This document shows, one piece after another, positions 9,922 to 17,343 of a stretch of 17,343 nucleotides of DNA. This DNA comes from Dehalococcoidia bacterium CG2_30_46_9 (GTDB lineage: Bacteria > Chloroflexota > Dehalococcoidia > GIF9 > AB-539-J10). The first letter of the stretch is position 1; each line of letters begins with the position of its first letter. Under the pieces are notes generated by a model that was not told where the DNA came from, did not search any database, and worked only from the letters and a program-made list of their open reading frames with translations. The position numbers and the translations under genes were made by a program. The DNA lies in assembly GCA_001873005.1 (NCBI GenBank), contig MNYE01000010.1, positions 1 to 17,343 of the forward strand, written 5' to 3'.

Positions 9922-10983
9922 TTGAAAGCAATTGTACTGGTTGGTGGTGAAGGCACACGCTTGCGACCTCTGACATATGGTATCCCTAAGCCAATGGTGC
10001 CAGTACTAAACTATCCTTTCCTGGAGCATACCATCGCTTATCTCAAGAAATATCGGATAAAAGAGGCCGTCTTAGCTACAAGTTACCTTTCTGAAGCTAT
10101 TCAGGGCTATTTTGGCCAACTAACTGGCTTGGGCGTGAAGTTAATTTATGCTGTGGAGGATAAGCCACTGGGAACGGCTGGAGCGGTAAAAAATGCCGAA
10201 CAACATCTTTCTGACACCTTTATCGCCTTTAATGGTGATATCTTTACTGACCTGAACCTTACCAAGATGCTCGCTTTCCATCGGGCAAAAGCAGCCAAAG
10301 TTACCATCGCATTGACCCGTGTGGAGAATCCCTCCGCCTACGGAGTAGTTGAAACCGAGAGCGATGGCAGGGTAAGACGCTTTATTGAGAAACCAAGCCC
10401 TGAACTTGTTTCACGGGATCAGGTAACCACTAACTGGATTAATGCTGGCATCTACATAATTGAGCCTGAAGTTCTAGGATATGTGCCGGATAATACTCAT
10501 TACATGTTTGAGAGTGGGCTTTTCCCCCTTCTTCTCCAACTGGGAGAACCACTCTATGCCCTGAAATTTGATTCAGGGTACTGGCTAGATATGGGAACCC
10601 CGCGAAAATATTTACAATTAAACTGCGACTTGCTTCTCTCTAAAGCAAGAAGTGCTCTCCTCGGTACCTTCGGCAAAGATGAGGTGCGCTACGGGGAAAG
10701 ATGCACTGTTCATCCCTCAGCACAAATAATTGGACCAGTAATTATAGGCAGTAACTGTAAAATCGGCCAGGATGTGTGCATCAAAGGACCTGTAGCCATC
10801 AACTCAGATTGCTCTTTGGCAGAAGGTGTAACATTAGAGACAGCAGTGTTATGGCAAGGCGTTGCCATAGGTAAAAATGCTGTTCTCAGGCACACTGTTG
10901 TGGGTAAGGACACCACCATAAGTGCTAATGCCACGCTCCTTCATTCTGCAGTTGCTGGTAGTGATATACAAGCCCTGAATTAA
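9922..10983 (+). CDS. Sugar-1-phosphate nucleotidyltransferase (GDP-mannose pyrophosphorylase-like)
   Basis: Predicted to make an NDP-sugar from a sugar-1-phosphate and NTP; the substrate is not decided by sequence. It starts at TTG 9922 with GGTGG eight bases upstream. The GT-A nucleotidyltransferase domain (residues 1-235) has the signature GGEGTRLRPLTYGIPKPMVP and FNGDIF as the metal-binding Asp region. The C-terminal third has left-handed beta-helix hexapeptide repeats (IIGPVIIGSNCKIGQDVCIK). Residues about 159-165 (PELVSRD) are extra relative to the usual EKPSPDQVTTN segment and coincide with a palindrome. The stop codon is itself inside a palindrome copy. Last gene of the plus-strand run, convergent with the operon that follows. 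Confidence 0.9.
   Translation: MKAIVLVGGEGTRLRPLTYGIPKPMVPVLNYPFLEHTIAYLKKYRIKEAVLATSYLSEAIQGYFGQLTGLGVKLIYAVEDKPLGTAGAVKNAEQHLSDTFIAFNGDIFTDLNLTKMLAFHRAKAAKVTIALTRVENPSAYGVVETESDGRVRRFIEKPSPELVSRDQVTTNWINAGIYIIEPEVLGYVPDNTHYMFESGLFPLLLQLGEPLYALKFDSGYWLDMGTPRKYLQLNCDLLLSKARSALLGTFGKDEVRYGERCTVHPSAQIIGPVIIGSNCKIGQDVCIKGPVAINSDCSLAEGVTLETAVLWQGVAIGKNAVLRHTVVGKDTTISANATLLHSAVAGSDIQALN
10398..10417. repeat. 19-bp palindrome, copy 3 (in nucleotidyltransferase), degenerate
   Basis: CCCTGAACTTGTTTCACGGG, with one extra base in the right arm. It is in frame in the nucleotidyltransferase and explains its six-residue insertion in EKPS-(PELVSR)-DQVTTN. Confidence 0.75.
10559..10578. repeat. Palindrome, copy 4 (in nucleotidyltransferase), possible
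   Basis: CCCTGAAATTTGATTCAGGG, arms CCCTGAA and TTCAGGG with a six-base centre. It translates as ALKFDSG just before YWLDMGTP. The protein looks nearly normal here, so it could be partly coincidental. Confidence 0.65.
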
Positions 10984-11019: not shown

Positions 11020-11652
11020 CTACGTCTTCCTAGATATCAAAGCACCGACCGGGCATCTGGTCACGCATTCCCGGCATGATTCACACCTGGACTTATCCCC
11101 GTAGAAAGCAATTCTGGTGGTGTAGCCCCGACCGACATAATAAAGGGCACTGACCCGGTGAATACTCTCACAGGTTTGCAAGCAAATTCCACAAAGCACG
11201 CATTTGTTGGGGTCGTAATCAAAACACGGGTTGGTGGTATCTAACGGCGCCTTAACTTTTGGTAATCTGAGGCGACGCACCCGCCTCCTATCGATACGAA
11301 GATGAGCCATTAGCTTTTGCAATTCACAGTGGCTGCTGCTCGGGCAGCTTGCACAACTGGCATGATGGTCAGCGATAAGTAACTCAACTACCGGGCGGAT
11401 TATCTTCTCAATCTTCGGGCTTTTCGTCTTAACTACCATCCCTGATTCTACCGGCATTCGGCAGGAGGTTACGAGTTCCCCACCCCCAATCTCGACAATA
11501 CATAGTCGGCAGGCGCCTCGAGCTTCCAAGTCAGGATGATAGCAAAGGTGGGGAATGTAAATGTTGTTTCGCAGTGCCGCTTCTAAAACCGATGTTCCGT
11601 TATCGACTACGACCTCTAAACCATCAATGGTGAACGAGACCTTGTCCATCAT
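11020..11652 (-). CDS. NuoG N-terminal/HoxU-like iron-sulfur subunit
   Basis: A 210-aa electron-transfer subunit. The N-terminal 2Fe-2S ferredoxin fold has Cys37, Cys48, Cys51 and Cys64. A NuoG-type His-Cys3 site follows (His96, Cys100, Cys103, Cys109). Two 4Fe-4S ferredoxin clusters come last (Cys151, 154, 157, 161 and Cys190, 193, 196, 200). This is the layout of the diaphorase gamma subunit of HoxU/HndD type without the attached hydrogenase domain or the long NuoG C-terminus. It likely carries electrons between NuoF-like flavin and a partner enzyme. No hydrogenase or formate dehydrogenase gene follows. The ATG overlaps the upstream nuoF-like stop by four bases. Last gene of the operon. Confidence 0.9.
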   Translation of the reverse strand: MMDKVSFTIDGLEVVVDNGTSVLEAALRNNIYIPHLCYHPDLEARGACRLCIVEIGGGELVTSCRMPVESGMVVKTKSPKIEKIIRPVVELLIADHHASCASCPSSSHCELQKLMAHLRIDRRRVRRLRLPKVKAPLDTTNPCFDYDPNKCVLCGICLQTCESIHRVSALYYVGRGYTTRIAFYGDKSRCESCRECVTRCPVGALISRKT

Positions 11653-13328
11653 TTGTCACCCTCACCCTCTCTCTTCGAGAGAGAGGGTGTTTTGGAGACA
11701 AGCGCCTGGCAAACACCAGCCGGGCATCGCTTTTCATGGATATGAGCTTCATATTCATCACGGAAGTAGCGGATAGTAGTCAGTACTGGATTAGGTGCAG
11801 TCTGCCCCAAGGCACAAAGAGACGTGCCTGCTACTGACTCGCCCAACTCCAAAAGCAAGTCAATATCCTCTGGTCTGCCCTGCCCTGTAGTTATATCGTC
11901 TAAAACGCTAAACATCTGCTTCGTTCCTACCCGGCAGGGGATGCACTGACCACAGGACTCCCTCTGAGTAAAATCGAGAAAGTACCGTGCCACGTCAACC
12001 ATGCAGGTATCTTCATCCATCACCACCATGCCTCCAGAACCCATCATTGAGCCGGCAGCGGTGAGCGAATCAAAGTCTACTGGCATATCCAGCAAGCTAG
12101 CTGGAATACAACCGCCCGAAGGTCCACCAGTTTGGACTGCTTTAAATGCCTTGCCCCCAGGAACGCCTCCCCCGATATCAAAGATAATCTCCCGAAGCCT
12201 GGTTCCCATAGGCACTTCTATCAGACCACAGTTGGCTACCTTGCCAGTCAGCGAAAAGATAGCTGTTCCCTTGCTCGTCTCAGTGCCTCGGCTGGCAAAC
12301 CACTCTGAGCCGCGAACAATAATCAGTGGAATATTGGCAAAGGTCTTTACATTGTTGAGTAAGGTCGGTTTACCCCACAACCCTACCTCAGCAGTGCGAG
12401 GGCGCGGAAGCGGTTTGGGCATTCCCCTCTTGCCTTCAATCGAGAGAACTAGGGCTGTAGATTCGCCGCAAACGAAGGCACCAGCCCCTCGAAAAATCTC
12501 TATGTCAAACCCAAATCCACTTCCCAGAATATCTCTACCAAGAAACCCTTTGTCTCTGGCTTGAGTGATGGCAATTCGCAGACGCTTTACCGCCAGGGGA
12601 TATTCGGCGCGGACATAAATGAAACCGCGCCTAGCGCCGACAGCATAGCCAGCGATAACCATCCCCTCTAAAACAGAATGAGGGTCTGCCTCCAATACTG
12701 AGCGGTCTTGAAATGCCCCTGGGTCGCCTTCATCGGCATTGCAGATCACGTACTTTTCGTTGCCGCCTGCTCTGAAAGTAGCTTCCCACTTTCGTCCAGC
12801 GGGAAATCCAGCGCCCCCCAGCCCGCGAAGTCCCGACTGCTTCACCTCAGCGATAATTTGCTCAGGTGTCATCTCAAAAAGAGCCTTGCGCAATGCTTGG
12901 TAACCACCAGTAGCAAGGTAATCATCTATATCCTCAGGGTCTATATGTCCACAATTGCGCAGTACGATGCGCTCCTGCTTTCTATAAAAAGGGATATCAT
13001 GGTAATTGGGGATAGGTTTACTACTAGCAGGGTCGCGATAAAACAGACGCTCTACGGGTTTCCCCCCGGGCAAGAACGATTGGATAATGTCTGATACGTC
13101 TCCCGGCGCAACTTTTGAGTAAAAAAGCCCTGAACTTGTTTCAGGGTCAACAACAACCAGAGGTCCTCGCTGGCAGAAGCCATGACAGCCAGTACGCTTA
13201 ATTCTGATGCCCTCTCCTAGGTTGAGCCTATCTATCTCATCTTCCAGTGAAGAGAAAATATCTTCGGCTCCTCCAGAGATACAACCGGTTCCCTGGCAGA
13301 CAGTAAGACTGTATTGCTTCTTAATCAT
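11649..13328 (-). CDS. nuoF: NuoF-like NAD(P)H dehydrogenase flavoprotein subunit
   Basis: Binds FMN and NAD(P)H and passes electrons to Fe-S clusters. Counting from ATG 13328 (GTG 13334 is possible): an N-terminal thioredoxin-like 2Fe-2S domain (Cys11, Cys16, Cys48, Cys52), the FMN/nucleotide site (GLGGAGFPAGRKW near 169, CNADEGDPGAF near 196), an SLBB domain, then the 4Fe-4S site Cys459, 462, 465 and Cys505. The FMN-loop motif CGEETAL reads CGESTAL, one acidic residue lost. HndC/HydB relatives often add two ferredoxin clusters after CPAGVC; here the protein stops there with a repeat-encoded tail (TPSLSKREGEG). A palindrome inserts ETSSGL at about residues 63-68. Third of the diaphorase-side genes in the operon. 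Confidence 0.92.
   Translation of the reverse strand: MIKKQYSLTVCQGTGCISGGAEDIFSSLEDEIDRLNLGEGIRIKRTGCHGFCQRGPLVVVDPETSSGLFYSKVAPGDVSDIIQSFLPGGKPVERLFYRDPASSKPIPNYHDIPFYRKQERIVLRNCGHIDPEDIDDYLATGGYQALRKALFEMTPEQIIAEVKQSGLRGLGGAGFPAGRKWEATFRAGGNEKYVICNADEGDPGAFQDRSVLEADPHSVLEGMVIAGYAVGARRGFIYVRAEYPLAVKRLRIAITQARDKGFLGRDILGSGFGFDIEIFRGAGAFVCGESTALVLSIEGKRGMPKPLPRPRTAEVGLWGKPTLLNNVKTFANIPLIIVRGSEWFASRGTETSKGTAIFSLTGKVANCGLIEVPMGTRLREIIFDIGGGVPGGKAFKAVQTGGPSGGCIPASLLDMPVDFDSLTAAGSMMGSGGMVVMDEDTCMVDVARYFLDFTQRESCGQCIPCRVGTKQMFSVLDDITTGQGRPEDIDLLLELGESVAGTSLCALGQTAPNPVLTTIRYFRDEYEAHIHEKRCPAGVCQALVSKTPSLSKREGEGDK
11663..11689. repeat. CACCCTCTCTCT/AGAGAGAGGGTG hairpin element
   Basis: Twelve-base-pair perfect stem (11663-11674 with 11678-11689) and a three-base loop. 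It forms the C-terminal codons of the NuoF-like protein and, on the minus strand, its adjoining GAGGGTGA lies just before the ATG of the NuoG-like gene, serving as ribosome-binding site. No U-run, so not a terminator. Confidence 0.75.
13128..13146. repeat. 19-bp palindrome, copy 6 (in nuoF-like gene)
   Basis: CCCTGAACTTGTTTCAGGG. On the minus strand it reads PETSSGL, placed between VVVD and FYSKV where relatives have a tight turn. Confidence 0.85.
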
Positions 13329-13330
13329 CC

Positions 13331-13360
13331 TCACCCTTACCCTCTCCCGTCGAGGGAGAG
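13331..13360. repeat. CTCTCCC/GGGAGAG hairpin element at nuoE-nuoF junction
   Basis: CTCTCCC (13342-13348), five bases, GGGAGAG (13354-13360), with CCTCACCCTTACC-like sequence beside it. It encodes the last residues of the NuoE-like protein (SLDGRG), and its G-rich arm on the minus strand lies before the nuoF-like start. The same design occurs at 11663-11689. Confidence 0.7.
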
Positions 13361-13828
13361 CCCTGAACTTGATTCAGGGTTGAAAAGTCCTCTTACCTTC
13401 TCTAGAGTCATCTCACCATGAACATTATTATTAATCCTCAGACAGGGCGCTAGAGCGCAGCAACCGATACAAGCAACAGTTTCCAGGGTATACTCCATGT
13501 CAGACGAAGTTTCCCCTTCCTTGACGCCAACCGCCTTTTCTATTTCTTGAAGAATCTGGTGGCTGCCACGGATATGACAGGCAGTGCCGCGACAAACTGT
13601 GACGCACTGTCTCCCCAGGGGTAACAGCCGAAACTGGGCATAAAAAGAGGCTACTGAATAGATCTCACCTTCCGCTATATTGAGAAAGCTGGCAATTAGC
13701 TGGATAGCATCTTCGGGCAGGTAGCTGAAATTACCTTGAACCTCAAGCAAAATCGGGATCAGCTCATTCTTTTTGCCTCGATAAAACGACAAAACTTCTC
13801 TGAGAAGCTGTTCCTCCAGTTCTTCCAT
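13337..13828 (-). CDS. nuoE: NuoE-like thioredoxin-fold 2Fe-2S subunit
   Basis: A 163-aa 24-kDa-type subunit of NAD(P)H dehydrogenases and diaphorases. A helical N-terminus (EELEEQLLREVLSFYRGKKN) is followed by the signature ASFYAQFRLLPLGRQCVTVC and the 2Fe-2S ligands Cys79, Cys84, Cys120 and Cys124. The last 14 residues (PESSSGLSLDGRG and flank) are encoded by a palindrome and a CCCTC element rather than family sequence. It begins 12 bases after the ferredoxin stop, with AAGGG as ribosome-binding site, and precedes the nuoF-like gene by eight bases. It would pair with that flavoprotein. Confidence 0.93.
   Translation of the reverse strand: MEELEEQLLREVLSFYRGKKNELIPILLEVQGNFSYLPEDAIQLIASFLNIAEGEIYSVASFYAQFRLLPLGRQCVTVCRGTACHIRGSHQILQEIEKAVGVKEGETSSDMEYTLETVACIGCCALAPCLRINNNVHGEMTLEKVRGLFNPESSSGLSLDGRG
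13361..13379. repeat. 19-bp palindrome, copy 7 (nuoE-like 3' end)
   Basis: CCCTGAACTTGATTCAGGG, the exact consensus form. It encodes PESSSGL at the C-terminus of the NuoE-like protein and abuts the CTCTCCC hairpin element. Confidence 0.9.
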
Positions 13829-13840
13829 AAAACGTCGCCC

Positions 13841-14071
13841 TTAGCCGGTACGAGGTCGAATCCAATCCGAGGAAATCCAGGGTCTTCTCTGTTCAAGACG
13901 CTTGTCTTGGCTCCACGTCAGGCACATTACGCGGCAGATTCCACACCGGTTGCACTTATCAGGGTCAGCATAGACATTTTTTTCTTTCGCGTTGACAGTG
14001 ATAGCGCCCGATGGACATGAAGCCTCGCAAAAGGGTAAAGGACAATATTGAGGGCATATTAGATTCGCCAT
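13841..14071 (-). CDS. Two-cluster 4Fe-4S ferredoxin-like protein
   Basis: 76 residues. The first cluster motif is Cys6-x3-Cys10-x4-Cys15-x3-Cys19-Pro, which departs from the usual CxxCxxCxxxCP. The second is the regular Cys40-x2-Cys43-x2-Cys46-x3-Cys50, but with Leu instead of Pro after the last Cys. A basic, Trp-containing tail (RRPWISSDWIRPRTG) follows. The ATG has GGAGGAG six bases upstream. Its place between the glutamate-synthase-like gene and the NuoE-like gene suggests it carries electrons between the two; it may also stand in for the ferredoxin domain missing from the NuoF-like C-terminus. Both roles are inference. Confidence 0.88.
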   Translation of the reverse strand: MANLICPQYCPLPFCEASCPSGAITVNAKEKNVYADPDKCNRCGICRVMCLTWSQDKRLEQRRPWISSDWIRPRTG

Positions 14072-14086
14072 GTCTCCTCCTTTTTC

Positions 14087-14105
14087 CCCTGAACTTATTT
14101 CAGGG
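14087..14105. repeat. 19-bp palindrome, copy 8 (supplies stop codon)
   Basis: CCCTGAACTTATTTCAGGG. On the minus strand its central TAA (14097-14095) ends the glutamate-synthase-like gene, the same trick as at 10973-10991. It lies between that gene and the ferredoxin. Confidence 0.85.
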
Positions 14106-15669
14106 CTAATATTTTCTCCGCTTCCTCCATATCCGCTTCCATTACATAGGGGATACCAGAAACATCCGTTGCTTCCCGTGTCAGTGCCATCAAGTCCTTT
14201 CTGTCTATGAACCTGAGGGCAAATTTGCGCTCTCCCGCCATAAGTTGCCTCAAGCCAGTAGCTAGTCGGTCATAATAAGTATAGATGCCTATTGCCGCTG
14301 GCGGTATCTTCTTGAAATCCTCGCCATACCTCTCTTTAAGCTCCCTCGCTCCAATGAATGTCCGAAACAGGGCTTCCTGGTATTCTTTGCTACCTTTCCC
14401 ATAAGCCTCTTCCATGAGCTGTCCCTGCGTCTTCCCCACCATAGCGGCGGTAAGGGTTGACCGACCCATGCATACTGCCTTTATATAAGGGGCGCCCAAG
14501 GCTATAGCCTTGAATATGTGGTCCTCTAAAGCAATACCACCAGCAATGGCGCAGCTGGGAATGAATTTACCTTTCTCATCGAGCCTCTTGAGGAACTTAT
14601 ACAGAAGATTCTCAATGTATATGGTTGGGATGCCCCACTCATTCATCATTCGCCATGGACTCATCCCCGTCCCCCCACCAGCACCATCCACGGTGAGCAG
14701 GTCTATTTTAGCCTCTGAGGAGAATTTAACTGCCCGGGCCAGGTCTGATGCCTTGTAGGCTCCGGTTTTGAGGGTAACATACTTCGCTCCTATTTTCCTT
14801 ATTCTTTCCACTTCTTTTAAGAACGATTCCTCATCCACCATTCCTAGGCGAGAATGTCGCTCAAACTCAGTTATACCACCCAGCTTGTGTGCCTCTTGCA
14901 CATAGGGATTTTCCGGATCAGGGTGAACAATGTACCCCCGCCTCTTGAGCTGTAGTGCCCGCTCGAGAGTCGGTAGCTTAACCTCACCACCGATATCTTT
15001 GGCACCTTGACCCCACTTTATCTCAATACCCTCAACCCCAAGCTTTTCTACGGCATACTCTGGGACGCCAAGGCGGATATCTTCTACATTTGCCTGCACT
15101 AGCAGCGTTCCATAGCCTGCATACCAGTCTTTGTACAACTTGACCCTTCTTTCCAGCTCCGGTGACCTCATAACCCTCCCATCCCTGAATTCCGCAGCCG
15201 GATCCATACCACAGACATTCTCGCCACAAACAAGGACGGCACCGCAAATGCCAACCGCAATAGCTGCACCTTCCCAGTTTACCCTGGCTATCTCCGTTGA
15301 ACCCAGAGCCCCGGTAAAGAAGGGGACCTTCATTTTGATTTTTCCGCCTTCAGCACCAATTTCGGTTGAAAGGTCAACAGCTGAAAAAACGGCTTTATCT
15401 GAGTCCGCCTCAATGCCAACTGCCCCCACGCAGCTTCCTTGAATATTGAAGTGAGAAAAATCGACGGGGTAATCTTTCTCCGACCCGGCAGTAATCTTCC
15501 CAAAAGGTTGCGGATAGATGACTTCTCTTCCTCTAAGAGCCGACCTTCCCACTTCGCAATAGCCGGGACAACCATCTCCACAGGTCACACATAATCCCGA
15601 GGTAGGTGAGGGCGCCACTCTGGTTGTAGTTAGTGTTGCTGGACTAGCGTTTGGTTTGCTTAATGACAT
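14095..15669 (-). CDS. Stand-alone FMN-type glutamate-synthase-like protein
   Basis: A 524-aa protein of the FMN-binding glutamate synthase (GltB central domain) family, which in GltB makes glutamate from 2-oxoglutarate and ammonia. Core signatures are KWGQGAKDIGGEVKLP (218-233), VDGAGGGTGMSP (327-338) and AGGIALEDHIFKAIALGA (376-393). There is no N-terminal glutaminase domain and no 3Fe-4S motif of the usual CHLNTCP kind. Instead residues 27-38 hold Cys27-x2-Cys30-x3-Cys34-x3-Cys38, a possible Fe-S site. No gltD is seen nearby. The ATG has AAGGAGG upstream, adjoining the hisF stop. The neighbouring ferredoxin and diaphorase genes are its likely electron supply. The true reaction is not proven; another FMN enzyme of the same fold is possible. 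Confidence 0.85.
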   Translation of the reverse strand: MSLSKPNASPATLTTTRVAPSPTSGLCVTCGDGCPGYCEVGRSALRGREVIYPQPFGKITAGSEKDYPVDFSHFNIQGSCVGAVGIEADSDKAVFSAVDLSTEIGAEGGKIKMKVPFFTGALGSTEIARVNWEGAAIAVGICGAVLVCGENVCGMDPAAEFRDGRVMRSPELERRVKLYKDWYAGYGTLLVQANVEDIRLGVPEYAVEKLGVEGIEIKWGQGAKDIGGEVKLPTLERALQLKRRGYIVHPDPENPYVQEAHKLGGITEFERHSRLGMVDEESFLKEVERIRKIGAKYVTLKTGAYKASDLARAVKFSSEAKIDLLTVDGAGGGTGMSPWRMMNEWGIPTIYIENLLYKFLKRLDEKGKFIPSCAIAGGIALEDHIFKAIALGAPYIKAVCMGRSTLTAAMVGKTQGQLMEEAYGKGSKEYQEALFRTFIGARELKERYGEDFKKIPPAAIGIYTYYDRLATGLRQLMAGERKFALRFIDRKDLMALTREATDVSGIPYVMEADMEEAEKILALK

Positions 15670-15682
15670 CGTTTAACCTCCT

Positions 15683-16453
15683 TTATATTCTTACCGGTAT
15701 TCCCCTGTCTTTAAGGTATTTTTTGGCTTCAGGTATAGATATCTCTCGAAAGTGGAAGACGGAAGCAGCTAAGACGGCCGCCGCTTTGCCAATGGTTACA
15801 GCTTCATAAAGGTGTTCCAACTTGCCGGCACCTCCCGACGCTGTGACTGGTATCGTCACTGCCTCAGCCACCGCTTTGGTCATCTCTAAATCGTAGCCTT
15901 GCTTGGTGCCGTCAGCATCCTTACTGGTAAGCAGGATTTCTCCAGCACCCAACTCCTCTACCCTCTTGGCCCACCTAACTATATCCATCCCGGTAGATTC
16001 CCTACCACTTTTGACAACCACTTCCAACCGGGGGAGGCCACTATTCGGTGGATTCTTCTTGCCATCAATAGCAATAACGATCTTCTCTTTTCCGAATTCT
16101 TTCACCGCTTGCCTTACCAACTCAGGATTCCTGACAGCAGCGGTGTTTATAGAAACTTTGTCCACACCAAGGTCAAATAATGCTTTCATGTCCTCAATGC
16201 TGCCAATACCACCACCTACGGCAAAGGGAACAGTTACCACTTCACAGACCTTTCTTACCCATTCTAACCTTGTTTTTCTACTCTCCATAGTGGCAAATAT
16301 GTCCAGGAAGACAATCTCATCAGCACCCTCTCTGCAGTAGGCTGCCGCCCCCTCGACCGGATCACGGGCATCCCTCAGGTTAACAAAGTTTACTCCCTTG
16401 ACTACCCTGCCCTCCTTCACATCAAGACAGGGTACGATTTTAACTTCTTTCAT
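15683..16453 (-). CDS. hisF: Imidazole glycerol phosphate synthase cyclase subunit
   Basis: TIM-barrel cyclase that uses ammonia and PRFAR to form imidazole glycerol phosphate and AICAR in histidine synthesis. It has 256 residues, normal length. Catalytic Asp11 (PCLDVKEGRVVKG) and Asp130 (VIAIDGKK) are present, as are the phosphate-binding loops VGGGIGS and SGGAGK. Two well-known segments diverge: DITAS reads DIFAT, and TSxDRDG reads TSKDADG. No hisH or other his gene adjoins. Its start overlaps nrpR by 14 bases and the glutamate-synthase-like gene begins 13 bases after its stop, so it belongs to this operon. A normal histidine role is most likely. Confidence 0.94.
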   Translation of the reverse strand: MKEVKIVPCLDVKEGRVVKGVNFVNLRDARDPVEGAAAYCREGADEIVFLDIFATMESRKTRLEWVRKVCEVVTVPFAVGGGIGSIEDMKALFDLGVDKVSINTAAVRNPELVRQAVKEFGKEKIVIAIDGKKNPPNSGLPRLEVVVKSGRESTGMDIVRWAKRVEELGAGEILLTSKDADGTKQGYDLEMTKAVAEAVTIPVTASGGAGKLEHLYEAVTIGKAAAVLAASVFHFREISIPEAKKYLKDRGIPVRI

Positions 16454-17343
16454 CTCGCAGCTCCCTAAATCTGATTAGTTCTCTATACTCCATGACGGTG
16501 CTCATGGCATGGTTCACTGCTTCTATGCCAGCCTCTTCCGCAGCCGCTACCGGATTCAACCCGCCAAGCAGAATCATCCCAATCTTGTTAAGCTCTACTG
16601 GCACCTCACACACTGCCTCACTGGTATTCCCCATTAAGAACAGGCTCCCAAGTCCGGCCTCTCTGAGTCTAGTTATTACCTCCTCGGCTATTGGACGACA
16701 GATGGCGGGTATCTCCCTGAAGTTAGCCAGAATCCGCCCCTGTCCTCTCTTAGCTGCCTCCTGAACGTCAGTCATCCTAGCCCTAATGAATACCTCGGAA
16801 GGGTCCAGGGAGCAACCAGTGTAGTAGATAAGTTCAACGAAGCGGATGGGTTTGTGATTTTGAATCTGCAGTATGCCACCGAATCGAGAGTCCATAGGAA
16901 CACCCGCCTTTAATAAGGAGCCATTAATCACGATGCTGCAAACAGTGGCAAGTCCCATCTTTCCCTGTGGAACGACCAGTCCCCCCAGTTGCCCTCCTCC
17001 AGAAGCTACTGCTACCAGATCGCTTGCGCATAGTCCTGCTTCAAAAACAGGACTCATTGCGTGGAGCGCTTTGCTGAACCTCTCTTCTGGGAAAAAAGAT
17101 ACGTTGACCGGAATCGAGCCGCAGTGTTTCTCGTAGTCGAAGGTCGTGCGGAACGCAAGCAATTCAATCCTGGAGATAGCAAAGCCGACTTTATCGGCAA
17201 CCAGAGCACACTTTACCTCCTCAATACCCCGTTCAGTGAGAGTACGCCCATAACGGCGCCCTACCAGCTGTGTCAGTCCGCGCTCATCCATGAACTTGAG
17301 GTGATATCTCACGGCTCGTTCGCCCAATTCGACCCCGCGGTCC
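16440..17343 (-). CDS. nrpR: NrpR-type nitrogen regulator (5' end outside window)
   Basis: Partial: the frame is open to the window edge (DRGVELGERAVRYHLKFMDE), so the true start and first part of the winged helix lie beyond 17343. The visible end of the helix-turn-helix resembles SERTVRYHLK of NrpR and is followed by a DUF128/NrpR regulatory domain of about 240 residues (GSLLKAGVPMDSRFGGILQI, EVFIRARMTDV, GMILLGGLNPVAAAEEAG). In methanogens NrpR represses nitrogen genes and is released by 2-oxoglutarate. Here it is the most upstream visible gene of the operon and overlaps hisF by 14 bases. This fits local control of glutamate metabolism, though no operator is visible inside the window. Confidence 0.85.
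   Translation of the reverse strand, partial: DRGVELGERAVRYHLKFMDERGLTQLVGRRYGRTLTERGIEEVKCALVADKVGFAISRIELLAFRTTFDYEKHCGSIPVNVSFFPEERFSKALHAMSPVFEAGLCASDLVAVASGGGQLGGLVVPQGKMGLATVCSIVINGSLLKAGVPMDSRFGGILQIQNHKPIRFVELIYYTGCSLDPSEVFIRARMTDVQEAAKRGQGRILANFREIPAICRPIAEEVITRLREAGLGSLFLMGNTSEAVCEVPVELNKIGMILLGGLNPVAAAEEAGIEAVNHAMSTVMEYRELIRFRELRDERS

Follow-up and report, generated by a model that had tools for sequence, protein, structure and literature searches.

A GltB-like flavoprotein encoded beside a Bfu-type diaphorase in a Dehalococcoidia bacterium as a candidate stand-in for glutamate dehydrogenase

Glutamate synthase (GltS or GOGAT, including the archaeal-type split GOGAT), glutamate dehydrogenase (GDH), the Bfu family of HydABC-like enzymes and NAD-linked formate dehydrogenase (FDH; FdhA-NuoEF) are the described systems closest to a seven-gene operon of Dehalococcoidia bacterium CG2_30_46_9. 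The window, which is the whole stretch of DNA analysed (17,343 nucleotides), is an entire contig (MNYE01000010.1; C83 of genome G000 in our numbering) of the 1.08 Mb assembly GCA_001873005.1, which is 82.75% complete. At 11020..17343, the seven genes, all on the minus strand, are separated by gaps of at most 23 bases or overlap (Table 1), as the first-pass annotation had stated and as the reading frames and family models confirm. The gene of main interest, gltBL, encodes a GltB-like protein (GltBL), and we lean towards the view that GltBL is a glutaminase-independent, ammonia-using, glutamate-forming flavoenzyme, which would take the role that GDH has in relatives and would receive its electrons via Fe-S proteins.

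GltBL compared with glutamate synthase

GltBL resembles GltS in its match to PF01645, its FMN-type TIM barrel and its GQGAK...GG motif, though it differs in being without the [3Fe-4S] cysteines, glutaminase, GXGXG and GltD. The match to PF01645 (52.7 bits; cut-off, 20.4) covered residues 277-405 only, corresponding to positions 185-307 of the 369 in the profile. The motif, in which E216, K218, Q221 and K224 are invariant, is shared with GltS along with other invariant residues, and GltBL is 24% identical to the archaeal-type GltB of relatives. In an alignment of 73 sequences, the four N-terminal cysteines C27, C30, C34 and C38 were the only invariant cysteines of GltBL (73/73), and no conserved cysteine stood at the GltS [3Fe-4S] positions after the FMN site. 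Pfam models detected neither a glutaminase nor a GXGXG part in GltBL or its operon, and detected both at another locus of the same genome. Judged by these sequence features, GltBL is no canonical glutamate synthase, and the earlier proposal that the diaphorase replaces the GltD subunit of such a synthase does not stand, the separate GOGAT having its own reductase. The family, which includes at least 8000 matching proteins and at least 567 confirmed stretches of species genomes, bears in databases only the names 'FMN-binding glutamate synthase family protein' and 'glutamate synthase domain-containing protein 2'. A sequence search of the PDB with the GltBL profile matched only designed TIM barrels, which were taken as chance.

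The families of a GOGAT operon were shown in a relative and then located in the window genome. The window operon contains no FDH, hydrogenase or gltD, as had been noted, yet contig C104 (locus L135) carries an archaeal-type GOGAT operon in the order hisH, NADH oxidoreductase, class-II glutaminase, hisF, gltB and GXGXG, with hisH cut by the contig edge. The window HisF has a normal HisF score (TIGR00735, 337.4 bits; cut-off, 294.55) and is 54% identical to the C104 HisF, which shares the GOGAT operon with hisH and rules out that the window HisF is the only HisF of the genome. No hisH partner was found in the window operon, though the C104 HisH could still serve. Given the GOGAT operon on C104, GltBL and the window HisF are thus glutaminase-less second copies. 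In this group (L135, L039, L050 and L053), the archaeal-type GOGAT operon includes both hisH and hisF, and a glnA-like gene lies 2.7 kb beyond the operon on C104.

GltBL and glutamate dehydrogenase in relatives

GDH has a family and fold other than those of GltBL and takes hydride directly from NAD(P)H, with no flavin or Fe-S. In a number of relatives it is GDH that fills the slot following nrpR-hisF, and the reaction that it catalyses is the one that we infer for GltBL; GDH, which holds the GltBL slot in many relatives, is a better comparison for GltBL than GltS. Among 61 relatives, in which GltBL was counted at >200 bits and GDH (PF00208) at E<=1e-60, both proteins were found in 8, GltBL only in 20, GDH only in 25 and neither in 8 (Fisher P 3.1e-4, ignoring kinship); P was 6.7e-6 without genus g14 and 4.9e-4 when every match over the Pfam cut-off was counted. 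The corresponding numbers in a phylum sample of 201 genomes were 4, 10, 163 and 24 (P 3.4e-6, ignoring kinship), with two unlisted genomes taken as GDH-negative and a GltBL piece in G008 taken as GltBL-positive. No PF00208 match was found in the window genome, whose assembly is incomplete.

NrpR was encoded on the same strand within 3.5 kb of GDH in 13 of the 33 GDH-positive relatives. The arrangements at 22 GDH loci, comprising 20 partly chosen for a nearby NrpR together with L139 and L142, were nrpR-hisF-gdh (7), nrpR-gdh without hisF (5), gdh-nrpR (1), hisF-gdh (4) and neither gene (5); six of the seven nrpR-hisF-gdh loci were in genomes without a full GltBL, and the seventh genome (G058) has both. 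All five of the proteins tested matched glutamate dehydrogenase models best, with 511-639 bits to GdhA_Arch, under the 750-bit archaeal cut-off.

In genome G003, the gene after nrpR-hisF is a mosaic (L139/L255; G003:C29:25769-27259) composed of a gltBL start, a complete gdh and a gltBL end. DNA searches matched its bases 7-77 to the gltBL starts of other genomes (78-93%), bases 87-1344 to gdh genes (79 and 81% for the two closest) and bases 1389-1484 to gltBL ends, including that of the window (76-85%). The ribosome-binding region and first codons (MSLSKPNASA) at the head of the gdh frame are those of gltBL, and beyond the gdh stop lies the terminal part of gltBL. We interpret this mosaic as a case, in a single genome, of gltBL having been replaced in place by gdh, the fossil of a gene replacement. 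It is mainly because of this replacement and the rarity of GltBL together with GDH that the GDH reaction may be assigned to GltBL, and because GDH often holds the same slot in relatives that GltBL is read as forming glutamate from ammonia. Literature searches on the family name, on Bfu/HydABC with glutamate synthase, and on NrpR with Chloroflexi or GDH returned, among the matches listed, which include passages of PMC5736913, PMC7325909 and PMC8097209 and have supplements outside their scope, no description of these arrangements, neither a GltBL-NuoEF cluster nor a GltBL-GDH exchange.

The electron-supply module

The window shares with the Bfu family, as described in passages of PMC9304861, the NuoE-NuoF-HoxU set and a NuoF with an N-terminal [2Fe-2S] domain and B1 and B2 ligands; it differs in that its NuoF is without the C-terminal 2x[4Fe-4S] domain and in that the third substrate would be 2-oxoglutarate/NH3, 'glutam' having 0 matches in the main text of that paper. 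Among solved sequences, the nearest to the window NuoF was HydB of the bifurcating A. mobile hydrogenase (7t2r_B, 773.6 bits), compared with 406.1 bits to the beta subunit of NAD-dependent FDH (6vw7) and 391.3 to Nqo1 (2fug). The FMN-binding domain (PF01512, 154.4 v 31.2 bits) and the NADH_4Fe-4S domain (PF10589, 119.5 v 23.5 bits) were detected, and SLBB (PF10531) scored 23.3 bits, under its 27-bit cut-off. The B2 cluster ligands of BfuB listed in PMC9304861 are C438, C476 or Thr, H525, C531 and C536, and in an alignment to 7t2r_B, the window residues C444, T482, H531, C537 and C542 take all five positions, with the threonine placed where, according to the same source, FeFe-type enzymes have Thr. 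By its sequence, the window 'diaphorase' is a descendant of the electron-bifurcating Bfu/HydBC family.

The C-terminal 2x[4Fe-4S] domain of BfuB (B3/B4, IPR017896) was absent from five of the 45 rows of the NuoF tree (the window, L035, L056, L057 and L058), as well as from L209, which was read apart; the other 40 rows had a C-terminal Cys-rich segment of Fe-S type, either ferredoxin-like or GltD-like. The window type, L035, L056, L057, L058 and one NuoF of G038 formed one clade (95/95), apart from the other two GltBL-associated groups; the 6 label changes on this tree are an overestimate, as L179 (the same gene as L035) and L144 (with a GltBL fragment alongside) were labelled 'no group'. Loss of the BfuB domain coincides with the presence of a separate ferredoxin gene next to GltBL, which suggests that the GltBL ferredoxin may take over the docking place of the lost domain, although this ferredoxin is also found with GltBL at loci that have no NuoF nearby.

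NAD-linked FDH resembles the window module in the order NuoE-NuoF-HoxU and in a HoxU akin to the N-terminus of fused FdhA-like proteins, whereas the window and L035 are without the molybdopterin part. The window HoxU ends where the molybdopterin domain of the HoxU-FdhA-like fusions of relatives begins. It shares 63% identity with the N-terminal end of the fused FdhA-like protein in L209 (G038), a locus with the gene order Fd-NuoE-NuoF-HoxU/FdhA-NrpR that lies at the end of a contig and has its NuoF split over two frames. The window module looks like an FDH-type module without the formate site. Its short form has intact frames in two genera, with pN/pS of 0.22/0.82 (NuoE), 0.14/0.76 (NuoF) and 0.22/0.77 (HoxU); dS is saturated, so these give no ratio. 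The window genome has a second Bfu-type set (L210; G000:C55:6037-12311), consisting of an FdhA-like protein (912 residues), NuoE and a BfuB (1034 residues) that is extended by a long GltD-type part, and such long BfuB forms recur in relatives.

The neighbours of GltBL were examined, using queries from the window and its relatives, at 118 loci drawn from the window, relatives, 80 named genomes (the best 80 of at least 567 confirmed stretches) and the phylum sample, after L059, a duplicate of L042, was dropped and 'FdhAcat' matches in L041 and L096 were excluded from the FDH counts. The expectation that the arrangement would be conserved in relatives was half borne out: nrpR, hisF and gltBL occurred together in 12 of the 118 loci, all Chloroflexota, and the diaphorase is exchangeable. 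Only 12 loci had a Bfu-type NuoF, from separate NuoF lineages, next to GltBL; it lay on the downstream side in 5 of them and on the upstream side in 7. On the same strand within 3.5 kb of GltBL, besides these 12 NuoF, we found tungsten AOR in 7 loci, NrpR in 21, HisF in 19 and GlnA in 24; nitrogen genes on either strand (nrpR, glnA, glutaminase, GltB and hisH) lay within that distance in 57/118 loci and in 31 of the 56 with full flanks. A homologue of the small ferredoxin was encoded directly downstream of gltBL in several phyla, within 300 bp in 20/118 loci. It was also beside GltBL in all 7 AOR loci, which were mostly records labelled Deltaproteobacteria or Desulfobacterales and in which AOR was identified by Pfam (L068) or by similarity (the other six).

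When matches 0-3 kb and 5.9-8.9 kb from GltBL were compared on 92 flank sides of at least 8.9 kb, those enriched near GltBL were NuoF (5 v 0), HoxU (5 v 0), Fd (5 v 0), Fd4 (4 v 0), NrpR (10 v 1), GlnA (19 v 2), ANTAR (13 v 1), NuoE (3 v 1) and HisF (6 v 3). The association of GltBL with near-flank neighbours such as NuoF, HoxU, Fd, NrpR and GlnA is more than chance. Beside Fd-GltBL, NuoEF with an FdhA-like protein occurred in Nitrospirota (L057) and Ammonifex (L058), and NuoEF-HoxU in the window and L035; since AOR or one of these two modules is found depending on the locus, the ferredoxin-GltBL pair meets different reductases. GltBL is preceded by BfuC-BfuB-BfuA in Aminicenantes and in some members of the Chloroflexota, and the small ferredoxin was not detected there. 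In a GltBL tree, a quick build with SH-aLRT support only, the NuoF label needs 3 changes. All 7 rows of one clade (SH-aLRT 81), which come from Chloroflexota, Aminicenantes and a single unassigned bacterium, were NuoF-associated. Locus L058 contains two gltBL genes, in glnA-gltBL and in gltBL-Fd-NuoE-NuoF-FdhA-like, and in L129 gltBL is preceded by a run of two BfuBC sets and two BfuA-like genes.

Considering these results, we propose the following scenario. NADH would be oxidised at the FMN of the NuoF subunit, and electrons would leave via NuoE/HoxU. The small 8-Cys ferredoxin would then carry them to the N-terminal four-cysteine cluster, their point of entry into GltBL, from which they would reduce the GltBL FMN and, in turn, the imine of 2-oxoglutarate and NH3. 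Such an electron supply would be exchangeable, being a Bfu/HydBC-type diaphorase with or without an FDH-like part, a polyferredoxin together with a tungsten AOR, or a donor encoded by no linked gene. The first-pass picture of an Fe-S-wired flavoprotein of nitrogen metabolism next to NrpR, with the diaphorase as the likely electron source, is in this respect supported. As 2-oxoglutarate with NH3 is a good acceptor for NADH, low-potential electrons would not be needed, and a Bfu core could use the drop to reduce ferredoxin. We also entertain, more tentatively, a Glt-Bfu complex in which a bifurcating or confurcating HydBC-type core has 2-oxoglutarate and NH3 as its third substrate, coupling ammonia assimilation to the pools of NADH and ferredoxin. 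The BfuC-BfuB-BfuA-GltBL of Chloroflexota and Aminicenantes would represent its intact form, from which the window form would be derived, BfuB having lost its own ferredoxin domain in favour of the ferredoxin bound to GltBL; intact BfuABC-GltBL loci would be a better test object for such a complex than the window. If true, the scenario would add a further route from ammonia to glutamate beside GDH and GS-GOGAT, possibly linking nitrogen assimilation to electron bifurcation, and would give a widespread family a testable role as a flavin/Fe-S stand-in for GDH with interchangeable reductant modules.

Several observations weigh against a glutamate-forming GltBL that is supplied in this way. GDH is also present in 8 of the 28 GltBL genomes, five of the 8 being in one genus; NuoF was not nearby in 106/118 loci, many loci showed no recognised reductase in the vicinity, and 40/118, some with short flanks, had none of ten searched redox and nitrogen families within 3.5 kb. 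The flank control showed no enrichment of GOGAT parts (GltB, 4 v 4; glutaminase, 4 v 2; HisH, 2 v 1; GXGXG, 0 v 6) or of the FDH part (2 v 1). The position aligned with a conserved GltS arginine is R in only 46 of the 73 GltBL sequences. In fold searches, the matches of GltBL to hydroxy-acid oxidases and IDI-2 were at least as good as that to glutamate synthase, which had Foldseek rank 2 yet was absent from the 50 VIA rows; since other families tied with GltS, the fold was not used to choose the substrate. With hydroxy-acid oxidases, IDI-2 and IMPDH matching the fold as well as GltS, GltBL might instead reduce another compound, such as a different 2-oxo acid, a hydroxy acid or an amino-acid-derived intermediate, with only an indirect link to nitrogen, and the AOR neighbours would suit such a substrate, as would the partial gene resembling L-2-hydroxyglutarate oxidase (212.5 bits; cut-off, 299) that was a neighbour in one case. 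We regard this as unlikely in view of the in-place GDH replacement, the rarity of GltBL together with GDH, the glnA, nrpR and GOGAT neighbours, and the invariant GQGAK residues shared with GltS.

GltBL is also found directly beside GOGAT operons and beside glnA, where it may serve GOGAT. It lies directly upstream of hisH-reductase-GATase-hisF-gltB-GXGXG operons in L050, L052, L053 and L054 and beside such operons in L039, L118, L224 and L229, and the window genome also has one, so that GltBL could be an auxiliary subunit of the canonical archaeal-type GOGAT, as an alternative electron donor or second synthase subunit, rather than an independent enzyme. This appears improbable, for GltBL stands elsewhere in most loci examined, with nrpR-hisF, with glnA or alone; some GltBL genomes gave no GXGXG match (G031, 96% complete; G039, 94%; G049; G052); and it is GDH, not a GOGAT part, that takes its place. 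A somewhat less remote alternative, though still a doubtful one, is that NuoE-NuoF-HoxU is the left-over of an FDH module that lost its catalytic part and serves another enzyme, its place beside GltBL being meaningless. The same NuoEF occurs with HoxU fused to an FdhA-like part in L057 (Fdh-alpha, 625.7 bits, under the 666.25 cut-off), L058 (by Pfam domains only) and L209 (52% identical to L057), and the window HoxU ends where that part starts; however, two genera share the short form, its frames intact and its pN much lower than its pS, and other Bfu lineages stand beside GltBL in another clade. A GltBL that forms glutamate from ammonia in the place of GDH thus continues to be the reading we favour.

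NrpR and the layout of the window

Archaeal NrpR responds to 2-oxoglutarate. According to passages of PMC2723118, NrpR represses nitrogen genes in methanogens through the operator GGAAN6TTCC and is present in certain Bacteria. In the scenario above, NrpR would control the operon, possibly in response to 2-oxoglutarate. The window NrpR, the only NRD1_2 match in the assembly, has an NRD domain (PF01995, 1.1e-79) and a winged helix (PF08461) that is partial because of the contig end. All seven families first named are present, although nrpR is not whole: its frame is still open at 17342, and a relative has ~37 more N-terminal residues.

The window's own nrpR upstream lies beyond the assembled contig. 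The archaeal operator GGAA-N6-TTCC was rejected as a control site, since it was found in 0 of 24 nrpR upstreams (300 bp). Of 14 distinct nrpR upstreams from Chloroflexota, 9 contained a palindrome, TAGGYAA-N4-TTRCCTA (TAGGCAAACGGTTGCCTA), with at most 2 mismatches, compared with 0 of 9 from other phyla; the palindrome was derived from two of the counted sequences (L142 and L038), so the independent count is 7/12. It is akin to the archaeal operator in length and symmetry and in several upstreams stands just after a promoter-like TATAAT; L142, L038, L047 and L055 are examples of loci with the palindrome near a box of this kind. We consider it a candidate bacterial NrpR operator, which would fit autoregulation. 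The palindrome was found in 0 of 10 loci with gdh after or beside nrpR and full gltBL absent or elsewhere, and was present in L142, which has nrpR-hisF-gdh and gltBL. Three gdh-type loci (L236, L239 and L240) have a similar CGGTAA-N4-TTRCCG form (4 mismatches). A genome-wide search gave 33 matches in 18 of the 61 genomes, compared with 29 for a reversed control pattern, and the flanks of the first site of each of 30 loci contained no nitrogen gene of the query set except nrpR in five genomes; no regulon is therefore claimed.

Families of the window proteins were assigned with Pfam and NCBIfam models. NrpR and HisF overlap by 14 nt and NuoF and HoxU by 4, and the gaps are 13 nt (HisF-GltBL), 23 (GltBL-Fd), 12 (Fd-NuoE) and 2 (NuoE-NuoF).

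Table 1. Genes of the operon in the window
Feature	Position	Strand	Basis or remarks
nrpR, 5' end cut by contig end	16440..17342	-	HTH_12 + NRD1_2
hisF paralogue, hisH-less setting	15683..16453	-	TIGR00735
gltBL, FMN-type TIM-barrel GltB-like protein, 524 aa	14095..15669	-	PF01645; C27, C30, C34, C38 invariant
Small 8-Cys ferredoxin	13841..14071	-	8 Cys by eye; Fer4-type matches all under cut-offs
NuoE/HydC/BfuC-type thioredoxin-like [2Fe-2S] subunit	13337..13828	-	Family models
NuoF/HydB/BfuB-type FMN subunit	11649..13334	-	N-terminal [2Fe-2S] domain, B1 and B2 ligand sets, without C-terminal 2x[4Fe-4S]
HoxU/BfuA-type subunit, 210 aa	11020..11652	-	Matches N-terminus of HoxU-FdhA-like fusions in relatives

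A palindromic repeat (CCCTGAACTTGATTCAGGG type) has four copies, at window positions 10973, 13128, 13361 and 14087, which are at gene ends and once in frame inside nuoF, and a second repeat type is found at ~11656 and 13331, in the tails of NuoF and NuoE. Between 2382 and 10983, the plus strand of the window contains several long open reading frames of up to 870 residues.

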